DNA of 28,693 bases from a virus. Below the pieces are notes generated by a model that worked only from the letters and a program-made list of their open reading frames with translations, searched no databases and was not told the DNA's origin. The stretch is taken from the IMG/VR virus record IMGVR_UViG_3300027896_000165, positions 1 through 28,693 of that record. One strand, written 5' to 3'. Of the stretch, positions 732 to 25,423 are shown piece by piece; position 1 is the stretch's first letter, and every line of letters starts with the position of its first letter. Made by a program: the position numbers and the translations under genes.

Positions 732-760
732 TTTGCATCTTTTGATGCATGGATTGTAAT
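732..760 (+). other. Hairpin with CRISPR-handle-like 3' flank upstream of tail tube gene
   Basis: TGCATC (734-739) pairs with GATGCA (744-749) around a TTTT loop. The stem is followed at once by TGGATTGTAAT (750-760). This flank matches, at 10 of 11 bases, the TGGATTGAAAT that follows the stem of the CRISPR-repeat-like element at 1678-1688. The stem sequences differ but both pair. There is no T-tract, so it is a poor intrinsic terminator. It lies just ahead of the Shine-Dalgarno of the tail tube gene and could instead be an mRNA leader structure. Confidence 0.4.
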
Positions 761-1660: not shown

Positions 1661-1688
1661 GTCGCTCCCCGGGAGCGTGGATTGAAAT
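1661..1688 (+). CRISPR. Solitary type I-C CRISPR-repeat-like unit
   Basis: A single 28-base element begins GTCGC and ends GCGTGGATTGAAAT, the conserved ends of type I-C repeats that Cas5d recognises. Its centre is an inverted repeat, CGCTCC (1663-1668) with GGAGCG (1672-1677), giving a 6-bp stem and 3-base loop. Typical I-C repeats are about 32 bases with a longer stem and loop, so this copy is a shortened form. The 11 bases after the stem (1678-1688, TGGATTGAAAT) match the I-C crRNA 5' handle. There is no second copy or spacer nearby, so this is not an array. It lies in the 5' leader of the gene at 1719, in the transcribed orientation. Phage-borne solitary repeats are known as RNA anti-CRISPRs (Racrs), and that role is an inference here. 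Confidence 0.75.
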
Positions 1689-1718: not shown

Positions 1719-2300
1719 ATGAATTTATCTGAGATTCTTACCGGAATAAAAAAGACATTTACAAAGTTTAAGATTGTAGAAATGAAGGAGTTAGGTCTTA
1801 CCTTTAAACTTGAGCCACTATCCTCGGAAGAAGAATTAAAAATTTTAGAGGCCTGTAAGGATGTTGAAGGGATACAATATATTTCGAATATAAAACGGCA
1901 TAGCCTAGCTTATGCTATAAAAAAGATAAACGATTTAGAATTAAATGAGGATGTGACTTACGAGGAAAATGGGCAAAAGAAGACCATGTCAAAATTTTTA
2001 TACATGGGGAAGCAAATAGCTGATTGGCCCTCTCCTCTTGTGGATATGCTATTTGAAGCCTACACAAATCTTCAAACTGAAGTAGAGGACATGGTAAAAA
2101 CTAAAACCAAGTTTGATACTTATACCCCGATTAAGACACCGGAGATACAGGCTAAACCCCAATTTACCCGAATTGAAGAAAAGGATGAAGAGGGTGATAC
2201 TGAAACAGATAAGTTGAATAAACAGATTGAAAAAGAGGCAAATCAGGTTGATGTTCATATGGACGATGCTGTAGAAACAGCGAAAATTACAAAAAAATGA
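1719..2300 (+). CDS. Putative tail assembly chaperone, first (gpG-like position)
   Basis: A 193-residue protein with no recognisable catalytic motif. It is small, acidic and mostly helical, with an N-terminal folded part (residues 1-120, including LTFKLEPLSSEEELKILEA) and a charged, probably disordered C-terminal tail (residues 140-193, rich in Glu, Asp and Lys). Its place between tail tube and tape measure, and its link to the next gene through a slippery heptamer, match the lambda G/GT class of tape-measure chaperones. Such chaperones are often found by synteny rather than sequence. The start ATG has AGGAG at 1709-1713 with a 5-base spacer. The leader carries the CRISPR-repeat-like hairpin, which could affect translation or mRNA processing. 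Confidence 0.6.
   Translation: MNLSEILTGIKKTFTKFKIVEMKELGLTFKLEPLSSEEELKILEACKDVEGIQYISNIKRHSLAYAIKKINDLELNEDVTYEENGQKKTMSKFLYMGKQIADWPSPLVDMLFEAYTNLQTEVEDMVKTKTKFDTYTPIKTPEIQAKPQFTRIEEKDEEGDTETDKLNKQIEKEANQVDVHMDDAVETAKITKK
2291..2300 (+). promoter_or_regulatory. Candidate -1 ribosomal frameshift site with ATGA stop-start overlap
   Basis: In the upstream gene's frame the sequence reads A AAA AAA TGA: a perfect X_XXY_YYZ slippery heptamer directly before the stop at 2298-2300. A slip of -1 places the ribosome on the ATG at 2297 and into the next open frame, giving a fusion of about 544 residues. The same bases form an ATGA overlap, so re-initiation after termination is the alternative. No good Shine-Dalgarno precedes 2297. 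Confidence 0.55.
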
Positions 2301-12698: not shown

Positions 12699-15600
12699 AT
12701 GGATATCAATCAAATTAAGCAGTTGCAATCATTAGACTTAGAATCATTTGAGATACGTGGGGCAAAAGCCGGCGTAGGTAACGCCAGTACTACAGGTCCG
12801 GTTTATGATTCCGGGTCTTATATTCTTCCTACAAGTAAGTATTCTGCAACCGGTAACTTCATTCCTGGTAGTCCCTCTATAACTGGTATAGTATTTTCGG
12901 CTCCGTACAGTGGATATGACTGTACAATTTTAAAAGATAATGATACGATTACAGTCGGGAGTTCTTCGTTTACCATAAAATCTATTGATTCAGTCAATAG
13001 TGTTACAGTTACTATGGTTACAGGATTGTCAGGTAGTCAGGTAATGACTTTGCATCTGTCCCAGAGAGAATACCTTGTTGAACCAGACATACTTACAAAT
13101 ATTCTTACAGGAAATGCAACGTTTACACAAGGGAGTCCTATTGTTATAGGTAATAGTACCCATTGGAAAAGTAAACTTGTTAGTGGGGATTTCATACAGC
13201 ATGACGGGTTTCAGGAATACTTCGAAATTCTGTCAGTTGATAGTAATACACAATTAACATTAACTTCGACGTATATAGGGGATAGTACATACGGAGCTTA
13301 TACAGCTAAAAAATGGACTATTGGTAGTACAGAAATAGAATATACAAAAAATAATTTTACGTATGATAAAAATTCTGCGAGATGGAAATCGGATAGTACT
13401 ACGGGGAGCGGATTATCAACATCAATTTATCCTACACCGCTGGCAGATGGTATTAATTTGTCGTTTACTCATACAATAAGTCCTGGGGCTCCTGACCTGA
13501 TGGATTCAGCTACGGTCCTAATGAAGACCTTTGCACAGAGCACTCAAACTGATGCATTTCAGTTTTCCTTACCGGTGGTTCCGAATCCTGAATCTTCAAT
13601 GGACTTATATATTAATGGGATACCGGCTGTTAGAAATACGGATTACGTAATAAATTATAATCAGAGTCCAATTTATCTTCCGCCGCCACCTGCACCTCAA
13701 GTTGCTAATATTATGCCTTTAGCCAGTGCCACTAATATCGAAATATCGCGGTCCAGTAGTGAAAACGGTCAGATACATTTTGTGGATGCCGGTGGGAATC
13801 CTGTTTCCGGGGTTATGCCTGGAACTGAGTTGATAAAAATTGATAGCACACAACAAGTTCCTTATCGTGACTATATGATAAATCCCTATGCTGGAACTGC
13901 AGAGATAATTCATGGTACTGTAAATGAGGAATTAGTAAAATACGTCGCTGTAAATAAAAGCAATTTAATAGATTACGGTATAAAAGTCTATATGGATGGT
14001 ATACCGCAGGCTATATCGAATCCACCACAGGACAGTGATGATGTAAGAATTGCACAATCAGGCCGTCTTCGTATTAAGGGTAAGGACCATCCGGGTCCTG
14101 GGGAAGAGTATGAAATTCATTATCAGGTTCCTGGGGGTCCTGTAAGTAATGAGAAGGAGACCGTTTTAATTAACTCACAGGGTAATAAATATGTTCAGAC
14201 ATCCTTATACCCCTTACAGAATGATACAGTTTTAGTTACCAAAAATGGATTTTTTCTGGACGAATGGATAGATTACAGGGTAAGTTATCCGACAGGTAGG
14301 ATTACTTTTCTTACATCCACAGATACGACGGACCAGGTAGCTGCTACCTATACCCCTCTTTCACTTCAGGTAAACAGTATGACATTTGAGGACTCAACGT
14401 CCTTCTGTACGGTATACGATTCAAGGTTGTCTATATTGGATTCCACGGCGTTTAAATTTTCAATTACAAATTCCGCATTACAGACCGAAAATATAAATGT
14501 TTTACGAATTTATAATGAGACCAGGAATAAAGAATACAATCTTACAAATATTACAAAACTTGGCTATACAATCACTTTAGAAAAAAATGCAACGAATATA
14601 GCCATAGGACTGGATACGTATGATAATATTATCAGTGATTATAAATTTGCATCAGAGGTCACGGAATACCAACCCATTATTTTAAATAAAATTACGGCTC
14701 CTGCCGGCTCTTATTCCATGTATTTTTCCGGCATGGATGTAACCAGTGACTTTCCTTCTTTTTCAGTAGTACGGTTATCACAACCGGATGGGGCACTTCC
14801 ATTTTATTTTCTTGTAGCATCCTCTGTATATGATGGGGAGGGGACACTTGTCACTTTTTGGTCACCTATACAGGAAGACATGTCCAATCCATTTATTGCT
14901 GTTACAGATAATATTGTTACTTTTAATTCTGTCCCATACAGAGCAAATACGATTGTTTCTGGTTCCAGTGACCTGTTTTTCCAAGGGGTCCGAATCAGAA
15001 ACCTATTTAGAGTCGGTACTCTTTTACAAATTGGGGCTGATATATATCAGGTTCAAAATGCAGGATATGATGACATCCGGTTAGGAACAGCCGTAAGAAT
15101 AGGTGGCACTTTTTTAAAAGATTATATTACGCCTACGATTTATGCATCAGACCAACCTGTTTATTTTGAGGGTTCCACAGAACTATCCCCATTCATGAAT
15201 ATAGTGGATACGTTATCTCAGCCAGGTATTATCCTGTCTGGGAATGTAAATATGACTACTTTAACGGATGCAACATCCTTATCTGTTGTTTCTGACTCAA
15301 GTACATACCAGTTCTTTTATGCTGACCATACAACATGTGGACTCATGGCTTCTTATATTCAGGCATCAGTGCCCGATTTAGATGCTACAACTTATGTATC
15401 ACAATGGGACAGTACAAAAATTATTTCGGGTCAGAGCCTGACTATTGCAAACGACTTTCCAGCAACAATAACTGTTCAGACTACCCTTAGGTTGGATGGT
15501 ACAGATACCACGAATTTTTCGGTCAGCACACAGGGTGGAATTACACTTGAAGAAGGTTTGGTAAAAGGACAAAGATACAATTTAGACTATATGGGTAGAC

Positions 15601-18035
15601 GGTATTTAGATGACCAAACGGTCGTTTATTCAGCCAACTACTTTACTATGCTATCAAAGGGGTCAAAGGTTCAGGCATCCTTCCGGTTTGATAATGTTGA
15701 TCAATTCTATATACAGGTTATGAGTCAGAGGGACTTTCTTGAAAATGTAACCATACCGAGGATGAAAGAGGAAGCGTTACAACTAAACGGGAATCCGGGT
15801 CAGGGGGGAAGTGTGCCGGATGATGAAGCACAGGGGAATGACCAGGGCGGTTTAGCCAATGATGAGTATCGTAGAAAAGATGCTGAAATAGAGTGCGACG
15901 TTTTTAAACAGATTTATGATTGGTTTAGTGACCGCTTAAGTGCATTTGGAAACGAGATGTATTCAGCGATAGGTCCTAAATTATTTAATAACGATGGTAC
16001 ATTTAGCCTTACAGAACAGCAAGGTGCTACATTAGCGACGAGCAGGATTTTTCCTTATCCTGATTATACGAACTTCGAACCATTCCGAGTTAACCCTCTG
16101 ACTGGGGAATACTATAGTTATGGGGCTCTTTTTACTCAGGGGTTAAATATAGTCACTAATATTGGGTCTTCATTTGGGTATCCCTCTTATTGGACTACAC
16201 AATTAAAAAGTAATGATTTTATTAGAAAGTTTGATTCTACAAAGATGTATAAAATACAATCAGTAGATTCAGATACGCAGGTCACACTAAATACTAACTT
16301 TGCAGAACGTAGCACAGCGACCGATACCAGGTTCGGAGCATCCTCTGGATATCCTATATATGATGATGATGGAAATTTAGGAGCAAAGATAGTAGGAAGT
16401 CGGTCGGACAACTTCGGACTTATAAGTGGGGATATTTTTGATTACTCTATTGATGGAAGTTCATATACTTATTATTCATTTGCTATTCCAACCGACCCGT
16501 TTATGGCTCTTCTTTTCCCTCCGGATAATCTTAACGCTGATTCTGTGGCTAAAATGATAAGTAATCCGACTAAAGGATTAATTGCTAAAGCTGAATGGGT
16601 CTTTGACTCCAATACTACATATGGGTATAAAACAGTTATTGTTTTAAGAACAGTACCCCCATATACAGGGATTAAATTAGGAACCGGAACTGCAATTTCT
16701 AAACTTGGATTTCAAATAAATGACGAAGTATATGGGAATTTAGACCCATTAAAAAGCAATCCTGAAATAGTTCTCATTCCTATTGAAATAGGATATTTAG
16801 CAGATGAATTTCCCAATATAAATTATTTAATTTCAGCTGGTTCAACAGATAAACTTGCACGGGTTAATCCAATTAATATCCCTTATGTTACTCCTATCTA
16901 TTTAGATGCGTACAATGAATTTGTTACTATTGCTAGTGAAATACCGAAGATTAACCAGGAAGTAATTTCAACGGAGCATATTATTCAAGAACCGGGACGT
17001 CCTGCTTATGCAGGGACTTATATAGCACATACGAACGCTGTAGCTATGTATAACGATACATGGGCTGCTCAGATTTATAATTTGTCTCTTATAACGAACT
17101 GGCAGGGTCATGACAGTAGTACAAACTGGGTTTTAGATTTACTTCCAAATAATAGGTATGTACGTGGTAAGAATACCGTTTCTGGAATAGGTGTACCGAC
17201 TTCATCCGGAACAAATATTGTAAATATAAATGGAGAAACAACATTTATTATAGATTCCGCTTCTGATAATGACAGAAGAATACTTTTAAATGCACTAATA
17301 GATGGGACGGTCTATCAGCCATCCATTGTTTATGAAAACAATCTTTTACCGGTAAGTGGGACATGGACTGGAGGAGACCCTTCAGTTGGAAATGTGTATA
17401 CATTAAATAATACTATGACATTTAATTTTAATCATAGTACTCCTGTTTTTACTATTTTGGCTGATGGTTCTACAATAAGTAATAGGAACTATTTAGTAGA
17501 TAAAACATCTATGAATTTATCATGGGAACAGGATACAACTACTTATTATCAATCATTTCCATACTCTACCTATACAACAATTGGTAGTATGAAAACAGGT
17601 ATTAATACTGTATCCGGATTTGATGCCACAGGAAATATCTCTTTAGACAGTAGTTCTTCAGAATCCTTTTTATTAAGTAGCGGAGTCATTGTTACAGATG
17701 CCACTATTTATCCTGCTTTACGTTCCTGTTATGTAACATGGTCGTCTATCTCCGACCAGATGTTAAACGACCGAGCTACTTTTGTTGTAAACAGAAGTAC
17801 CGTTTTAAATAATCGTAATTTATACCTAATTAATACTAGACAGAGTCAGATTGTAAGTAATGTAATAGATGAAGGGATACTTAGGGATAGTAGTGGTAAT
17901 CCGGGTGACCTTTATACTTGGGCAAATAATCGATGGAATCGCAGACAGGGATGTAATGCAAAATTGGTACAAATAGAAAATCAAATAAAATCAAATAAAT
18001 CAGCTCTGTCTGTGAGTCAGACAGTGGCTTTCTAA
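12699..18035 (+). CDS. Giant beta-rich virion structural protein, modular
   Basis: A 1778-residue protein, the largest in the window, with no enzyme motif that I recognise. Three segments resemble a small beta module with a Trp or aromatic, a (S)GDFI-like turn and a (S)VDSxTQ(L/V)TL strand: roughly residues 50-115 (degenerate), 132-215 and 1148-1225. A second type of module, with an NG/DG turn and a D-Y strand, recurs near 299-340, 424-484 and 508-558. Residues about 1000-1070 are helical and charged with a Gly/Gln/Asp-rich linker (GNPGQGGSVPDDEAQG). The final 40 residues are helical. Position between spike and wedge genes and the modular beta architecture suggest a baseplate-peripheral or side-fibre scaffold. 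The ATG lies 4 bases after the previous stop with a rather distant AGGGAG. Confidence 0.65.
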   Translation: MDINQIKQLQSLDLESFEIRGAKAGVGNASTTGPVYDSGSYILPTSKYSATGNFIPGSPSITGIVFSAPYSGYDCTILKDNDTITVGSSSFTIKSIDSVNSVTVTMVTGLSGSQVMTLHLSQREYLVEPDILTNILTGNATFTQGSPIVIGNSTHWKSKLVSGDFIQHDGFQEYFEILSVDSNTQLTLTSTYIGDSTYGAYTAKKWTIGSTEIEYTKNNFTYDKNSARWKSDSTTGSGLSTSIYPTPLADGINLSFTHTISPGAPDLMDSATVLMKTFAQSTQTDAFQFSLPVVPNPESSMDLYINGIPAVRNTDYVINYNQSPIYLPPPPAPQVANIMPLASATNIEISRSSSENGQIHFVDAGGNPVSGVMPGTELIKIDSTQQVPYRDYMINPYAGTAEIIHGTVNEELVKYVAVNKSNLIDYGIKVYMDGIPQAISNPPQDSDDVRIAQSGRLRIKGKDHPGPGEEYEIHYQVPGGPVSNEKETVLINSQGNKYVQTSLYPLQNDTVLVTKNGFFLDEWIDYRVSYPTGRITFLTSTDTTDQVAATYTPLSLQVNSMTFEDSTSFCTVYDSRLSILDSTAFKFSITNSALQTENINVLRIYNETRNKEYNLTNITKLGYTITLEKNATNIAIGLDTYDNIISDYKFASEVTEYQPIILNKITAPAGSYSMYFSGMDVTSDFPSFSVVRLSQPDGALPFYFLVASSVYDGEGTLVTFWSPIQEDMSNPFIAVTDNIVTFNSVPYRANTIVSGSSDLFFQGVRIRNLFRVGTLLQIGADIYQVQNAGYDDIRLGTAVRIGGTFLKDYITPTIYASDQPVYFEGSTELSPFMNIVDTLSQPGIILSGNVNMTTLTDATSLSVVSDSSTYQFFYADHTTCGLMASYIQASVPDLDATTYVSQWDSTKIISGQSLTIANDFPATITVQTTLRLDGTDTTNFSVSTQGGITLEEGLVKGQRYNLDYMGRRYLDDQTVVYSANYFTMLSKGSKVQASFRFDNVDQFYIQVMSQRDFLENVTIPRMKEEALQLNGNPGQGGSVPDDEAQGNDQGGLANDEYRRKDAEIECDVFKQIYDWFSDRLSAFGNEMYSAIGPKLFNNDGTFSLTEQQGATLATSRIFPYPDYTNFEPFRVNPLTGEYYSYGALFTQGLNIVTNIGSSFGYPSYWTTQLKSNDFIRKFDSTKMYKIQSVDSDTQVTLNTNFAERSTATDTRFGASSGYPIYDDDGNLGAKIVGSRSDNFGLISGDIFDYSIDGSSYTYYSFAIPTDPFMALLFPPDNLNADSVAKMISNPTKGLIAKAEWVFDSNTTYGYKTVIVLRTVPPYTGIKLGTGTAISKLGFQINDEVYGNLDPLKSNPEIVLIPIEIGYLADEFPNINYLISAGSTDKLARVNPINIPYVTPIYLDAYNEFVTIASEIPKINQEVISTEHIIQEPGRPAYAGTYIAHTNAVAMYNDTWAAQIYNLSLITNWQGHDSSTNWVLDLLPNNRYVRGKNTVSGIGVPTSSGTNIVNINGETTFIIDSASDNDRRILLNALIDGTVYQPSIVYENNLLPVSGTWTGGDPSVGNVYTLNNTMTFNFNHSTPVFTILADGSTISNRNYLVDKTSMNLSWEQDTTTYYQSFPYSTYTTIGSMKTGINTVSGFDATGNISLDSSSSESFLLSSGVIVTDATIYPALRSCYVTWSSISDQMLNDRATFVVNRSTVLNNRNLYLINTRQSQIVSNVIDEGILRDSSGNPGDLYTWANNRWNRRQGCNAKLVQIENQIKSNKSALSVSQTVAF
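15699..15702. other. Only GATC tetranucleotide found in the window
   Basis: Reading the sequence by eye, I found one GATC, within TTGATCAA in the giant structural gene. Its palindromic nature makes it the same on both strands. It marks the exception to a window-wide absence of this site. Confidence 0.75.
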
Positions 18036-19946: not shown

Positions 19947-21491
19947 ATGGCTGATGTTACTCCTTTGTTAAGTGGGTCAACTGCTAAAGCCGCTAATACT
20001 GCAAAAATAGCGACCTCTGCCGGGTCTGAGTTATTAGCTACTACTTGGCAGGGTATTACCCAGGTTATAGACCTTGCTAGGAATAATACAACTACTGGTT
20101 TACGTCAGGCAAATGACCTGTTAACTAGAAGGATAGCCATTCTACAGGAGAGATTATCCAGTTTACAGTCTAATGAAGATTATTTATTAGCTAAAATTTA
20201 TACAAATATTGATTCAAAAGAATTAGAACAAAGATATAAAGCCAATCATTTTCAAAAAACAGGACCAGTTCCATCAGTTGCTCCTACGTATTCTGATGTA
20301 AATCCGTTTCATAACATTCCCTATAATATGGAATGGCTCCGTAATAATTCCCCGGGTTTTAAGGAATTAGAAGCTGAAATTAATAAAGTTCAAACAGAAA
20401 TAAAAGCAATAGGCAGTGAAATAAATCATTTAACAAATGCTCTTAATGCCTACCAAAAAATTATTAATAATCAGTCTGGATTCCGTATTAATGTAGAAAC
20501 GGATAGAACTGCAAAAGCAATAATTTCTTACCTATTCCTTTTACAGAGTCTTTGTAAAGAATTTGCAAAATATACAACGGACCCAACTGGAGCCAATAAA
20601 AATTGTACGGGTCAATCGTGGGAAGAAAAAAGGACAGTCATTAGAGAACAGTTTAAAGCTACGGTAAGGGGTATTGGGCAAGTTGACCCACAGTATATTA
20701 GTGGGCCAAAAAAATTAAATTTGTCAAATCCAGGAGACCCAAATAATTTAGCAATTCTTAACGAAGATATTAAGAGTATTAATGACCTAGCGAGTAAGAA
20801 CTCGGCGGATTTTAGTGCTATAACTGCACTAAAAAATCAAGCTGATAAATTTGTTAATAGCTTGGTTTCAACAAGTACTGACCCAATTGTCTCAAAATCT
20901 GTAAATTCAAGGCAATCCCAGGATAACCCATCAGATTCATTAGCCGTTAATACAAAGTCTTTATCTTATAAATTATCTACACTTGGAGATAATTTTTGGA
21001 CAAAATGGATTATTGATGGCGGGAAAGAAATCGACGCTGTATTAAAAACATGGATGGGTTATAATAATAAAATACTTAAGGCACTACAGCCATGTACAGG
21101 TAAACCAATTGATGATAAAGCGGAAGAAGATAGGCAGAAAAAAATTGATGAAACTACTGCGGCACAAAAAGCTGCGGCTAAAAAAGTAACAGATGCAGCA
21201 GCGGCCGCGGCCGCGGCAGAGGAGCAAGCGAATAAGAATACAGATACGATGAATAAAGCTAATGCAAGATACGTGGAAGCTGCCGGTCTTAATCTCGATA
21301 GTAATCGTGAAGACGTAAATACAGCCGTAGAAGCAAAATTACGGTCTGCAATAGTTTTTTTACAGGGTATAATTATTGGACCTGATTTTAAAACCCTCTC
21401 CCCAACGGATAAGGTCGCTGTTATAAAAATGAAAGATGAATTGAATTCAAATTTACATAAATTTCTCGAAAGACTCCGTGGAAATTCGTAA
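19947..21491 (+). CDS. Coiled-coil virion protein
   Basis: A 514-residue mainly helical protein of unknown family. Coiled-coil-like stretches lie at about 50-100 (ANDLLTRRIAILQERLSSLQ), 130-180 (ELEAEINKVQTEIKAIGSEI) and 385-430, where an Ala-rich segment (KKVTDAAAAAAAAEEQ) is encoded by a GC-only run at 21201-21216 in otherwise AT-rich DNA. The ATG at 19947 has AGGAGAT overlapping the preceding stop, so the two genes are coupled. The composition suggests a rod or bundle, perhaps linking baseplate parts. Function is not assignable from sequence. Confidence 0.55.
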   Translation: MADVTPLLSGSTAKAANTAKIATSAGSELLATTWQGITQVIDLARNNTTTGLRQANDLLTRRIAILQERLSSLQSNEDYLLAKIYTNIDSKELEQRYKANHFQKTGPVPSVAPTYSDVNPFHNIPYNMEWLRNNSPGFKELEAEINKVQTEIKAIGSEINHLTNALNAYQKIINNQSGFRINVETDRTAKAIISYLFLLQSLCKEFAKYTTDPTGANKNCTGQSWEEKRTVIREQFKATVRGIGQVDPQYISGPKKLNLSNPGDPNNLAILNEDIKSINDLASKNSADFSAITALKNQADKFVNSLVSTSTDPIVSKSVNSRQSQDNPSDSLAVNTKSLSYKLSTLGDNFWTKWIIDGGKEIDAVLKTWMGYNNKILKALQPCTGKPIDDKAEEDRQKKIDETTAAQKAAAKKVTDAAAAAAAAEEQANKNTDTMNKANARYVEAAGLNLDSNREDVNTAVEAKLRSAIVFLQGIIIGPDFKTLSPTDKVAVIKMKDELNSNLHKFLERLRGNS

Positions 21492-22249: not shown

Positions 22250-25200
22250 ATGTCATTACCAGCCCCAGTCATACTTTTGCCTACAAACGGTGCAGATTAT
22301 ACAACCGATGTACAGACCCAGACATTATCTGGAACAACTTCTACTGATAGTGCTCGAGTTATCGTTAATGGGTCATCTTTAGGCGTATCTTATACCCCAG
22401 GGGAATCAGTATGGTCATGGACCGGAAACCTGGTAATGGGAACGAATACCTATAGTATCATTTCCGTTGAAAAAAGTACAGGAAACCTGAGTCCGGCTAC
22501 TACAATTAATATTACATACATCCAAAGTGACCAGTTCATTACAATATCACCTCCAACAGGTGTACGTCTACGGGAATATCAAAACCAAATAGAAATAATC
22601 TGTACACAGAATCCGGAACCACAAACTATTGGATATAACTTTTATGTAAGTACATCCAGTGGTGGTGTAAACGGGTCGTACGTAAAAATAAATGCAGAAC
22701 CAGTAAATCAATATTCTTTCTTTGAGGATGTAATATCAGAAATCAATCGTTCTGTGGATACTGCTGGAAACATACGGGTTACTACAATAACAGAAGAAAT
22801 TACCAGGACCTATTATTATTCTACATTTTTTACACAAGATATCTTTAATGCCATGGTAACAAATGGTCAATTACCTCCTGTATCTTTTAATGAAGACCAA
22901 CCATTTTTTTTCATCGCAACAGCGGTTATTTATGACCCAAATGCAGGACAAGTTACAGAAAGTGCTTATTCTTCTGAGCTACAGGGTTCCCCAATTATTA
23001 TTACAACCGGGATACAAGATTTGCCGGCACGTACACAGAATGATATTGTATCTACTTTTAGTACGGAACTCACAGTTGCTAATCAAGGCATTGATACAAA
23101 ACCCGGAACCGTTATTCGAGACCTAATTAATCCGGAAACAGAAGAAATGGCCAGGTATTACGTTATTCAGGATTTCATGGCCCGGTCTCTTTCGGTCAGT
23201 GCCCTGCAGGATTTTGATGATTCTAACGGGGATGGGGTAAGTGACGATGTTAGCACAAGTACAAAAAAAAGTGCTTTAAAAATGGCAGTTGGCTTTACAA
23301 ATGACTCTGATGTTCAACGATTGATTGATGACCAATTTGATAAATTAGCGTCAAACGTAAATGTATTAAGAAAAGGGGCAACCAGTTCTACCGGTTCTGT
23401 AACATTTTTTACCAATACGCCACCTATACGGGACATGTACGTCTATGAAGGTGCCGTTGTTGCTACTTTAGGTGACGTAGACCAGGGTATCCCTTCGCAG
23501 AATTATAAAACTTTAACTACAAAATCCATTACATACGCAACGAGGGACCAATATTATAATAGTCAAACCGGACGATATGAACTTGAAATGGATGTTGAAT
23601 GTACAGATACTGGTTCTGCCGGAAATACAGATTCATACACTGTTAAATCTGTTCTTACCGGTGTAGATTCTAATTTCCAGGTAGAAAATCCGAATCCAAT
23701 AAGTTTCGGACAGGACAGGGAATCAAATCATGATATGGCAGGTAGAATTGAACTTGCATTATTTGCGGACACAGGTACTGAAGGTGGTTATGTTAAAACA
23801 TCAATTGCTATTACAGGTGTACATGGAGTACGTGTAGAAAAGGCAGGGGATTCTTTGATGATAAGGGATTATGACCCTATTCGTAAAGAGCATATCGGTG
23901 GTAAAGTTGATATATATGTTCAGGGTGAAAAAGAAAAGCAGATGACAGACCAGGTTGCTTTTTCTTTTGGAGAATCAGCCCAGGTCAGTGGAGGTATCTC
24001 CGGGGAAACATTCCTGGTTATTAACGCTGCCTCTTTCCAGTTTAAATCACAAAATTCAAGTGTAACAGCCCATACACCGATTTTTGAGGTGTCCCGAGTT
24101 TATAATTCTACACGAGCTGCTGATTATGATATTACCGGGTATCAAATTATTGGAGATGGAAATACTATAGACCTGGATGAGACACTTCCGAAGAATGTTA
24201 CAATTGGCCTGGCATCAACGGATACTATAAAAGTGGACTATAAATATCGTAGCTCGGATACTTTCGTATTAGCTCATCAGCCGGTATTAAATATCGTATC
24301 CGTTGTTGGACAGCTTTCGGGTCCATTAACATCGGACAACTGGGATTTAGTTAAACTTCAAGACCCGTTAGCCGAGGGTGGGTCTACTATTGCTAAAGAT
24401 AGTATTAGAATAAAATTTGCTAATAATCTTCCCCTTACTGAATTCCAAACGATTACGGATGAGCCCCATACATTAGTTATGGGTGTGGATGAACCGTTAG
24501 ATTATATGGGTATTGATGTTGAATCAATCGTGATAACGAATACGGACAAAACTACTACCTATGTATTAGACTTTGATTATAGAGTATTACCCGGTACAGA
24601 TACAACTCCAACCAATATACGTATGATTGATACCGGAAGAATTAGCAATGGCCAGTCTGTTCTTGTAAATTATACAGCAATAGAAAATTTCACAATTACA
24701 TACACAACGAATGACCTCTTAAATACAGTTCAGGACCAGGTCAATATTATGAAGCATGCCTGTGCTGATGTTATTGTAAAGCAGTCTATTGAAAATAAAG
24801 TGGATTTTATTATTACGGTAGTCCCAAAGTCAGGTGCTACAAATATGAACAGTCTATCTTCAAAGATTCGTACAGCCGTAGCAAACTATGTAACACAACT
24901 TGGAGTAGGTATCTCTTTGGAACAAAGTGAAATAATAAGCCTGATTCAAAGTATACCCGATGTAGATTATCTCATACTTCCTTTCCTGAAAATGGTAAAG
25001 GCAGACGGGTCTTTTATTACCCGGGACAATTTGAGTTCACCTACATTTCAAATATTCAATCAGGGCTTATCAACGTCGTATATCACTACTATCCCGGTAC
25101 TAACATATAAAACAACAGATAAGGGTGGGTCTGAAAATATGTTTCGTGGAGTCTTTGAAAACCAAATGCCGATGGTTTTACAGGCTGACCCGCTTGATGT

Positions 25201-25423
25201 ATCCGGGGGCCCGGGAAGAGCTTATATCCAGTCCGATGGTAAAATCGTTGTCAGCACTAGAGACGGTAAACTCCCCGAGACAAAGACCTATGAAGTAGCT
25301 TACTTCGTTTATGGTGAAACCGGAGCAAAAGACATTAATGTGGCATCTTTGGAATATCTTACAGTGGGTAATTTTACTATTATTTTTGATAATCCTAGAG
25401 AACAAACCAAGCAGGCTTTTTAA
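22250..25423 (+). CDS. Baseplate wedge protein, J-like (gp6/Mu gp47 family) with large insertion
   Basis: A 1057-residue wedge protein. Residues 1-92 look like an Ig-like domain (PAPVILLPTNGADYTTDVQ) and 95-250 like a fibronectin type III-like domain (PPTGVRLREYQNQIEIICT). The baseplate-J core starts near 260 (ARTQNDIVSTFSTELTVANQ, then KPGTVIRDL) and runs to GGKVDIYVQG near 550-560. About 265 residues of beta modules (DYDITGYQIIGDGNTIDLDE, then FDYRVLPGTDTTPTN) separate it from the usual J C-terminal part (about 825-930: VNIMKHACADVIVKQ, IITVVPKSGAT, IRTAVANYVTQLGVG, IISLIQSIPDVDYLI). The remaining C-terminus is beta-rich. The gene follows the gp25-like candidate with AAGGA upstream. The J assignment is based on the ordered motif pattern and synteny. 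Confidence 0.75.
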   Translation: MSLPAPVILLPTNGADYTTDVQTQTLSGTTSTDSARVIVNGSSLGVSYTPGESVWSWTGNLVMGTNTYSIISVEKSTGNLSPATTINITYIQSDQFITISPPTGVRLREYQNQIEIICTQNPEPQTIGYNFYVSTSSGGVNGSYVKINAEPVNQYSFFEDVISEINRSVDTAGNIRVTTITEEITRTYYYSTFFTQDIFNAMVTNGQLPPVSFNEDQPFFFIATAVIYDPNAGQVTESAYSSELQGSPIIITTGIQDLPARTQNDIVSTFSTELTVANQGIDTKPGTVIRDLINPETEEMARYYVIQDFMARSLSVSALQDFDDSNGDGVSDDVSTSTKKSALKMAVGFTNDSDVQRLIDDQFDKLASNVNVLRKGATSSTGSVTFFTNTPPIRDMYVYEGAVVATLGDVDQGIPSQNYKTLTTKSITYATRDQYYNSQTGRYELEMDVECTDTGSAGNTDSYTVKSVLTGVDSNFQVENPNPISFGQDRESNHDMAGRIELALFADTGTEGGYVKTSIAITGVHGVRVEKAGDSLMIRDYDPIRKEHIGGKVDIYVQGEKEKQMTDQVAFSFGESAQVSGGISGETFLVINAASFQFKSQNSSVTAHTPIFEVSRVYNSTRAADYDITGYQIIGDGNTIDLDETLPKNVTIGLASTDTIKVDYKYRSSDTFVLAHQPVLNIVSVVGQLSGPLTSDNWDLVKLQDPLAEGGSTIAKDSIRIKFANNLPLTEFQTITDEPHTLVMGVDEPLDYMGIDVESIVITNTDKTTTYVLDFDYRVLPGTDTTPTNIRMIDTGRISNGQSVLVNYTAIENFTITYTTNDLLNTVQDQVNIMKHACADVIVKQSIENKVDFIITVVPKSGATNMNSLSSKIRTAVANYVTQLGVGISLEQSEIISLIQSIPDVDYLILPFLKMVKADGSFITRDNLSSPTFQIFNQGLSTSYITTIPVLTYKTTDKGGSENMFRGVFENQMPMVLQADPLDVSGGPGRAYIQSDGKIVVSTRDGKLPETKTYEVAYFVYGETGAKDINVASLEYLTVGNFTIIFDNPREQTKQAF

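Follow-up and report, generated by a model that had tools for sequence, protein, structure and literature searches.

A solitary, loop-trimmed CRISPR repeat of type I-C in a structural-gene cluster of a huge phage: a candidate RNA anti-CRISPR

RNA anti-CRISPRs (Racr) of the solitary repeat unit kind, directed against clustered regularly interspaced short palindromic repeats (CRISPR) systems, have a tested type I-C member in RacrIC1, which lies beside acrIC5 in a Bifidobacterium pseudocatenulatum prophage and, co-transcribed with that gene, protects a targeted phage from a I-C system (PMC10651486). In another subtype, RacrIF1 draws Cas6f and Cas7f into an aberrant subcomplex (PMC10651486). Here the 28.7-kb virus record IMGVR_UViG_3300027896_000165, analysed at its full length and called the window, was examined for a 28-nucleotide (nt) element, GTCGCTCCCCGGGAGCGTGGATTGAAAT, located exactly at positions 1661-1688 of the plus strand. 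The window covers part of the structural genes of a huge phage that has not been cultured, and the element is a solitary type I-C CRISPR repeat. It is probably an RNA anti-CRISPR aimed at a host type I-C CRISPR-Cas system, in which the kind of inhibitor is already known and the loop-trimmed form is new.

RacrIC1 and the window element are alike in being solitary I-C repeats that run in the direction of a neighbouring gene within a phage-derived genome. RacrIC1, however, shares its transcript with an acr gene and has been put to experimental test, whereas the window element has a trimmed loop, stands among huge-phage structural genes and is a candidate. With RacrIF1 it would share mimicry of a repeat, expected processing by the host CRISPR RNA (crRNA) endonuclease and a dead-end Cas subcomplex, but RacrIF1 belongs to a subtype that uses Cas6f and not Cas5d, and its mechanism was demonstrated for I-F only. 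RacrIC1, itself a solitary I-C repeat transcribed together with a gene, restores a targeted phage (PMC10651486). The reading as an RNA anti-CRISPR, put forward in a preliminary description of the DNA, matches this known kind and is the best-supported explanation of the element.

Identification of the repeat was based on a covariance model of 15 I-C repeats, of which 13 came from arrays found in viral contigs and the other two were known repeats of this subtype. The element matched this model at 38 bits with an expectation value (E) of 9.5e-10 across the window, and the second-best match in the window had E = 0.5, so chance is excluded and the element is a solitary type I-C repeat. This confirms the repeat at the place where the preliminary description had reported it. 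Folded alone, the 28 nt formed a stem of 6 bp closed by a CCG triloop and followed by 11 unpaired nt, the handle; the stem and handle are those reported before, and the hairpin was retained when the whole leader was folded. The tail TGGATTGAAAT is the 5' handle left on I-C crRNAs after Cas5d processing. Type I-C arrays consist of at least two repeats with spacers, usually beside cas genes; the window holds one repeat, without a second repeat or spacer (no other significant model match in the window), with no other repeat within about 100 bp, and a profile search of the window found no Cas5 match. The element matches a known repeat of a defined subtype, I-C, though with a loop shorter than in array repeats, and lies between two open reading frames (ORFs) of a viral record. 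No curated Rfam family matched the window at its gathering score, no other exact copy of the 28-mer was found in IMG/VR, and one-mismatch handles across the family showed, on an informal reading, no clear excess in the window. A lookalike ahead of the upstream gene (Table 1) was rejected as a true repeat, its match to the covariance model being not significant.

The loop is where the element departs from array repeats. Cellular I-C arrays with a GCTCCC/GGGAGC stem (Clostridia, Paenibacillus, Chloroflexi and others) have the same GTCGC start, stem bases and GCGTGGATTGAAAT end as the window, but 4-7 nt between CCC and GGG, whereas the window has 1 nt and no array. The arrays were read in 120 cellular stretches chosen by the window's stem, and none of the 120 contained a compact array repeat. 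Between GTCGC and GCGTGG the distance is 12-15 nt in 1,837 of 1,840 cellular array repeats, versus 9 in the window. The earlier statement that stem and loop together are about 4 bases short therefore stands as regards a shortened variant, but it is mainly the loop that is affected. Naming of a host by repeat typing was rejected, as the same stem and GAAAT end are present in several phyla.

A pattern search of IMG/VR (GTCGC-N8-20-GCGTGGATTGAAA) returned at least 111 solitary matches, and among the matches listed the GTCGC-to-GCGTGG spacing is 8-10 in 16 of 111. The comparison with the cellular arrays is a loose one, as that set was chosen by its stem and repeats of one array are not independent. 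A direct scan for spacings of 4-10 found 62 viral stretches versus 1 for a control pattern with a reversed handle. In 55 distinct compact elements, of which a few of the shortest are possibly chance matches in coding DNA, a GAAA loop occurs five times and a UUCG loop four times. Because the loop is trimmed while stem and handle are kept, this suggests selection on an RNA recognised by Cas5d, rather than on a repeat that serves Cas1-Cas2. The same features render it rather improbable that the element is a functionless remnant of a captured CRISPR array. Its solitary state and its absence from the same gap in most relatives would agree with such an origin, but a decaying repeat would not have kept its stem and handle, no cellular array repeat seen has so short a loop, the compact form recurs in the 62 viral stretches, several with stable tetraloops, and several phages carry multiple copies. 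A compact solitary element, GTCGCACTTGTGTGCGTGGATTGAAA, was also seen in a Clostridiales contig that has arrays as well (LVAK01000012, L253), and it could belong to a prophage.

Pairing and orientation of the viral solitary elements both point to RNA. Among the matches listed, the stem is extended by at least two pairs in about 100 of 111, a fourth pair is formed in 93% of distinct elements versus 43% in shuffles, and the stem is kept through many different base pairs. The intergenic ones, again among the matches listed, are co-directional with both neighbours in 34 cases and against both in 7 (binomial p = 2.5e-5), where the flanking genes came from a simple script, so that flanks are approximate, and some contigs are related to each other. 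Because of this co-direction with flanking genes, the elements probably ride on phage transcripts. The sense-strand bias and the retained stem pairing, an RNA feature, argue against a role in DNA, either as a decoy or attachment site at which Cas1-Cas2 integrate spacers or as a site for integration into arrays. Spacer integration is expected to depend on repeat length, which is lost in the compact elements, and such a role for the repeat is very unlikely. Some of the listed elements adjoin terminase, portal, head-protease or tail-lysin genes. Placement among structural genes is for this reason not exceptional, contrary to the earlier caveat that a late module would be an unusual site for an anti-CRISPR; two relatives (G029 and G032) carry an element in the very same structural-gene gap.

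The group of related phages was represented by 38 viral contigs with a homologue of the upstream gene, and clear I-C elements were found in 4 of the 38. In G029 and G032, which are nearly identical in this region, a 32-nt element lies in the same intergenic gap on the opposite side of the intergenic hairpin. The 120-kb contig G001 has one I-C element near a tRNA-like sequence, and the 210-kb contig G026 has two 25-nt elements, GTCGCTGAAAAGCG(T/C)GGATTGAAAC, which are GAAA-capped and stand about 180 nt apart near a tRNA-Ile (L169 7434-7762). In the 485-kb phage LR745208 the model found four weaker matches (E 3e-5 to 3e-3), whose stems have diverged and whose GTGGATTGAAAC end is intact; a distance of 75 nt separates two of the four. 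Phages of the window's group thus carry I-C mimics repeatedly, at changing positions. No element was found in Tunturi_5, and a GTGGATTGAAT string in L006 and L007 was rejected as an element, because the model did not call it and its bases pair with a stretch downstream. Two side observations concern the same kind of sequence: in the 141-kb contig G039 (L325 and L334, ~1440-1600), two I-C-like elements lie 84 nt apart and the sequences after them resemble each other, as though one complete unit had been copied and the copies had later drifted apart, and in G001 (L297, ~1216-1640) the I-C element mentioned above is surrounded by several repeated stretches that resemble tRNAs, which ARAGORN does not call as such.

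These shifting positions bear on whether the element acts in cis. It had been suggested that host Cas5d cleaves the tail messenger RNA (mRNA) leader and so ties tail expression to CRISPR status; in a wider form, host Cas5d or Cascade would bind or cut the leader, and expression of ORF 1719-2300 would follow the CRISPR status of the host. The window repeat ends 20 nt ahead of the AGGAG ribosome-binding site, and several other solitary elements, among the matches listed, are 11-35 nt ahead of a same-strand gene. The distance to the next gene varies widely among those matches, however, and the position is not conserved: the window element follows the intergenic structure, whereas those of G029 and G032 precede the intergenic hairpin, far from the next start, and those of G026 and G001 adjoin tRNA or tRNA-like genes. 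Since the element has other positions in relatives, the idea that leader cleavage regulates the next gene finds no positional support and is judged unlikely.

For the preferred reading as an RNA anti-CRISPR, a mechanism can be proposed in which the element would be transcribed within the structural-gene mRNA, and host Cas5d would bind or cut it at its points of recognition, the base of the stem and the handle. By analogy with the known inhibitors, Cas5d and Cas7 would be tied up by the products in incomplete complexes, and less working Cascade would be assembled. An alternative use of the same cut is that the mRNA following the element, loaded with the handle, serves as a guide and redirects Cascade to a phage or host target. 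An intact handle, present even with the diverged stems of LR745208, would fit this, but there is no second repeat to set a 3' end, the downstream sequence is an AT-rich leader overlapping the next start codon, and the bases 3' of the handle have no common pattern among compact elements; guide-making is accordingly quite unlikely. The RNA anti-CRISPR reading builds on what is observed, namely the repeat identity, the stem and handle, the solitary state, the sense orientation, the recurrence in related and unrelated phages and the rarity of the compact form in cells. Several points weigh against it. Transcription, Cas5d binding or cleavage and inhibition are inferred, partly by analogy with RacrIC1 and RacrIF1, and acceptance of the CCG triloop by Cas5d is presumed; no acr gene was recognised nearby, the majority of the window proteins being without a family match, and the element is absent from the same gap in about 20 relatives.

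The element is intergenic and in sense orientation between two ORFs of the same strand (Table 1). A consensus scan for a dedicated promoter ahead of it stayed near chance, and the window contains no transfer RNA (tRNA) and no Rfam match. Relatives of the upstream protein are gp329 of jumbo phage Tunturi_5, whose gene stands amid those of the sheath and further structural proteins, and a protein encoded by LR745208. Family matches to a Baseplate_J protein (22250-25423), together with a tail-fibre-like protein (12699-18035) and a weak tape-measure match (19947-21491), identify a structural-gene cluster, so that the earlier term tail operon is a fair one. Machinery of type I-C encoded by the phage was considered and rejected. 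In the 469-kb contig G015, a relative of the window (L166 834-3224), a Cas5 family protein stands between Cas7-like and Cas6-like proteins in an apparent I-E-type Cascade, of which the Cas5 match was profile-tested and the flanking Cas7 and Cas6 were assigned by appearance.

Table 1. Features around the solitary repeat in the window
Feature	Position	Strand	Basis
Compact solitary type I-C CRISPR repeat (candidate Racr)	1661-1688	+	model match, 38 bits, E 9.5e-10
6-bp stem (1663-1668 / 1672-1677) with CCG triloop (1669-1671)	1663-1677	+	folding
11-nt unpaired 3' tail (handle), TGGATTGAAAT	1678-1688	+	sequence
Upstream gene, virion structural protein homologue, 234 aa	777-1481	+	homology
Downstream gene, 193 aa, no family match; ribosome-binding site AGGAG at 1709-1713	1719-2300	+	
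Weak lookalike, hairpin and TGGATTGTAAT, before the ribosome-binding site of ORF 777-1481	732-760	+	E 1.3

Ahead of the element, the intergenic region 1482-1645 after the upstream gene folds in most relatives, the same gap being seen in L004, L008, L014, L016, L017, L019, L021, L024, L027, L028, L036 and others. A long-range closing stem, whose sequence differs among relatives, encloses a G+C-rich hairpin in many of them, and AU-rich repeats resembling AGATAAGAT are present. As judged from such folding, this gap may be a conserved structured RNA of the window's huge-phage group.

The published SRUFinder accepts a sequence that is at least 90% identical to a known repeat across 90% or more of that repeat, scores 41.1 bits and has no similar stretch within 100 bp. 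Under these criteria the window element, with a loop 4 nt shorter, is probably a partial match only, and compact and paired elements would probably fail. It is tentatively proposed, as a possibility short of probable, that loop-trimmed I-C mimics, some of them GAAA- or UUCG-capped, form a distinct and overlooked class of RNA anti-CRISPR, and that huge-phage genomes have several of them dispersed over late operons and tRNA clusters, from which ordinary mRNA or tRNA maturation would release them. If compact mimics inhibit, RNA anti-CRISPRs would be undercounted by screens that require near full-length repeat identity, and the usual loop would be dispensable for fooling Cas5d, with a minimal inhibitor of about 25-28 nt. 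That such elements recur among uncultured huge phages is a sign that these phages meet type I-C CRISPR as a defence.
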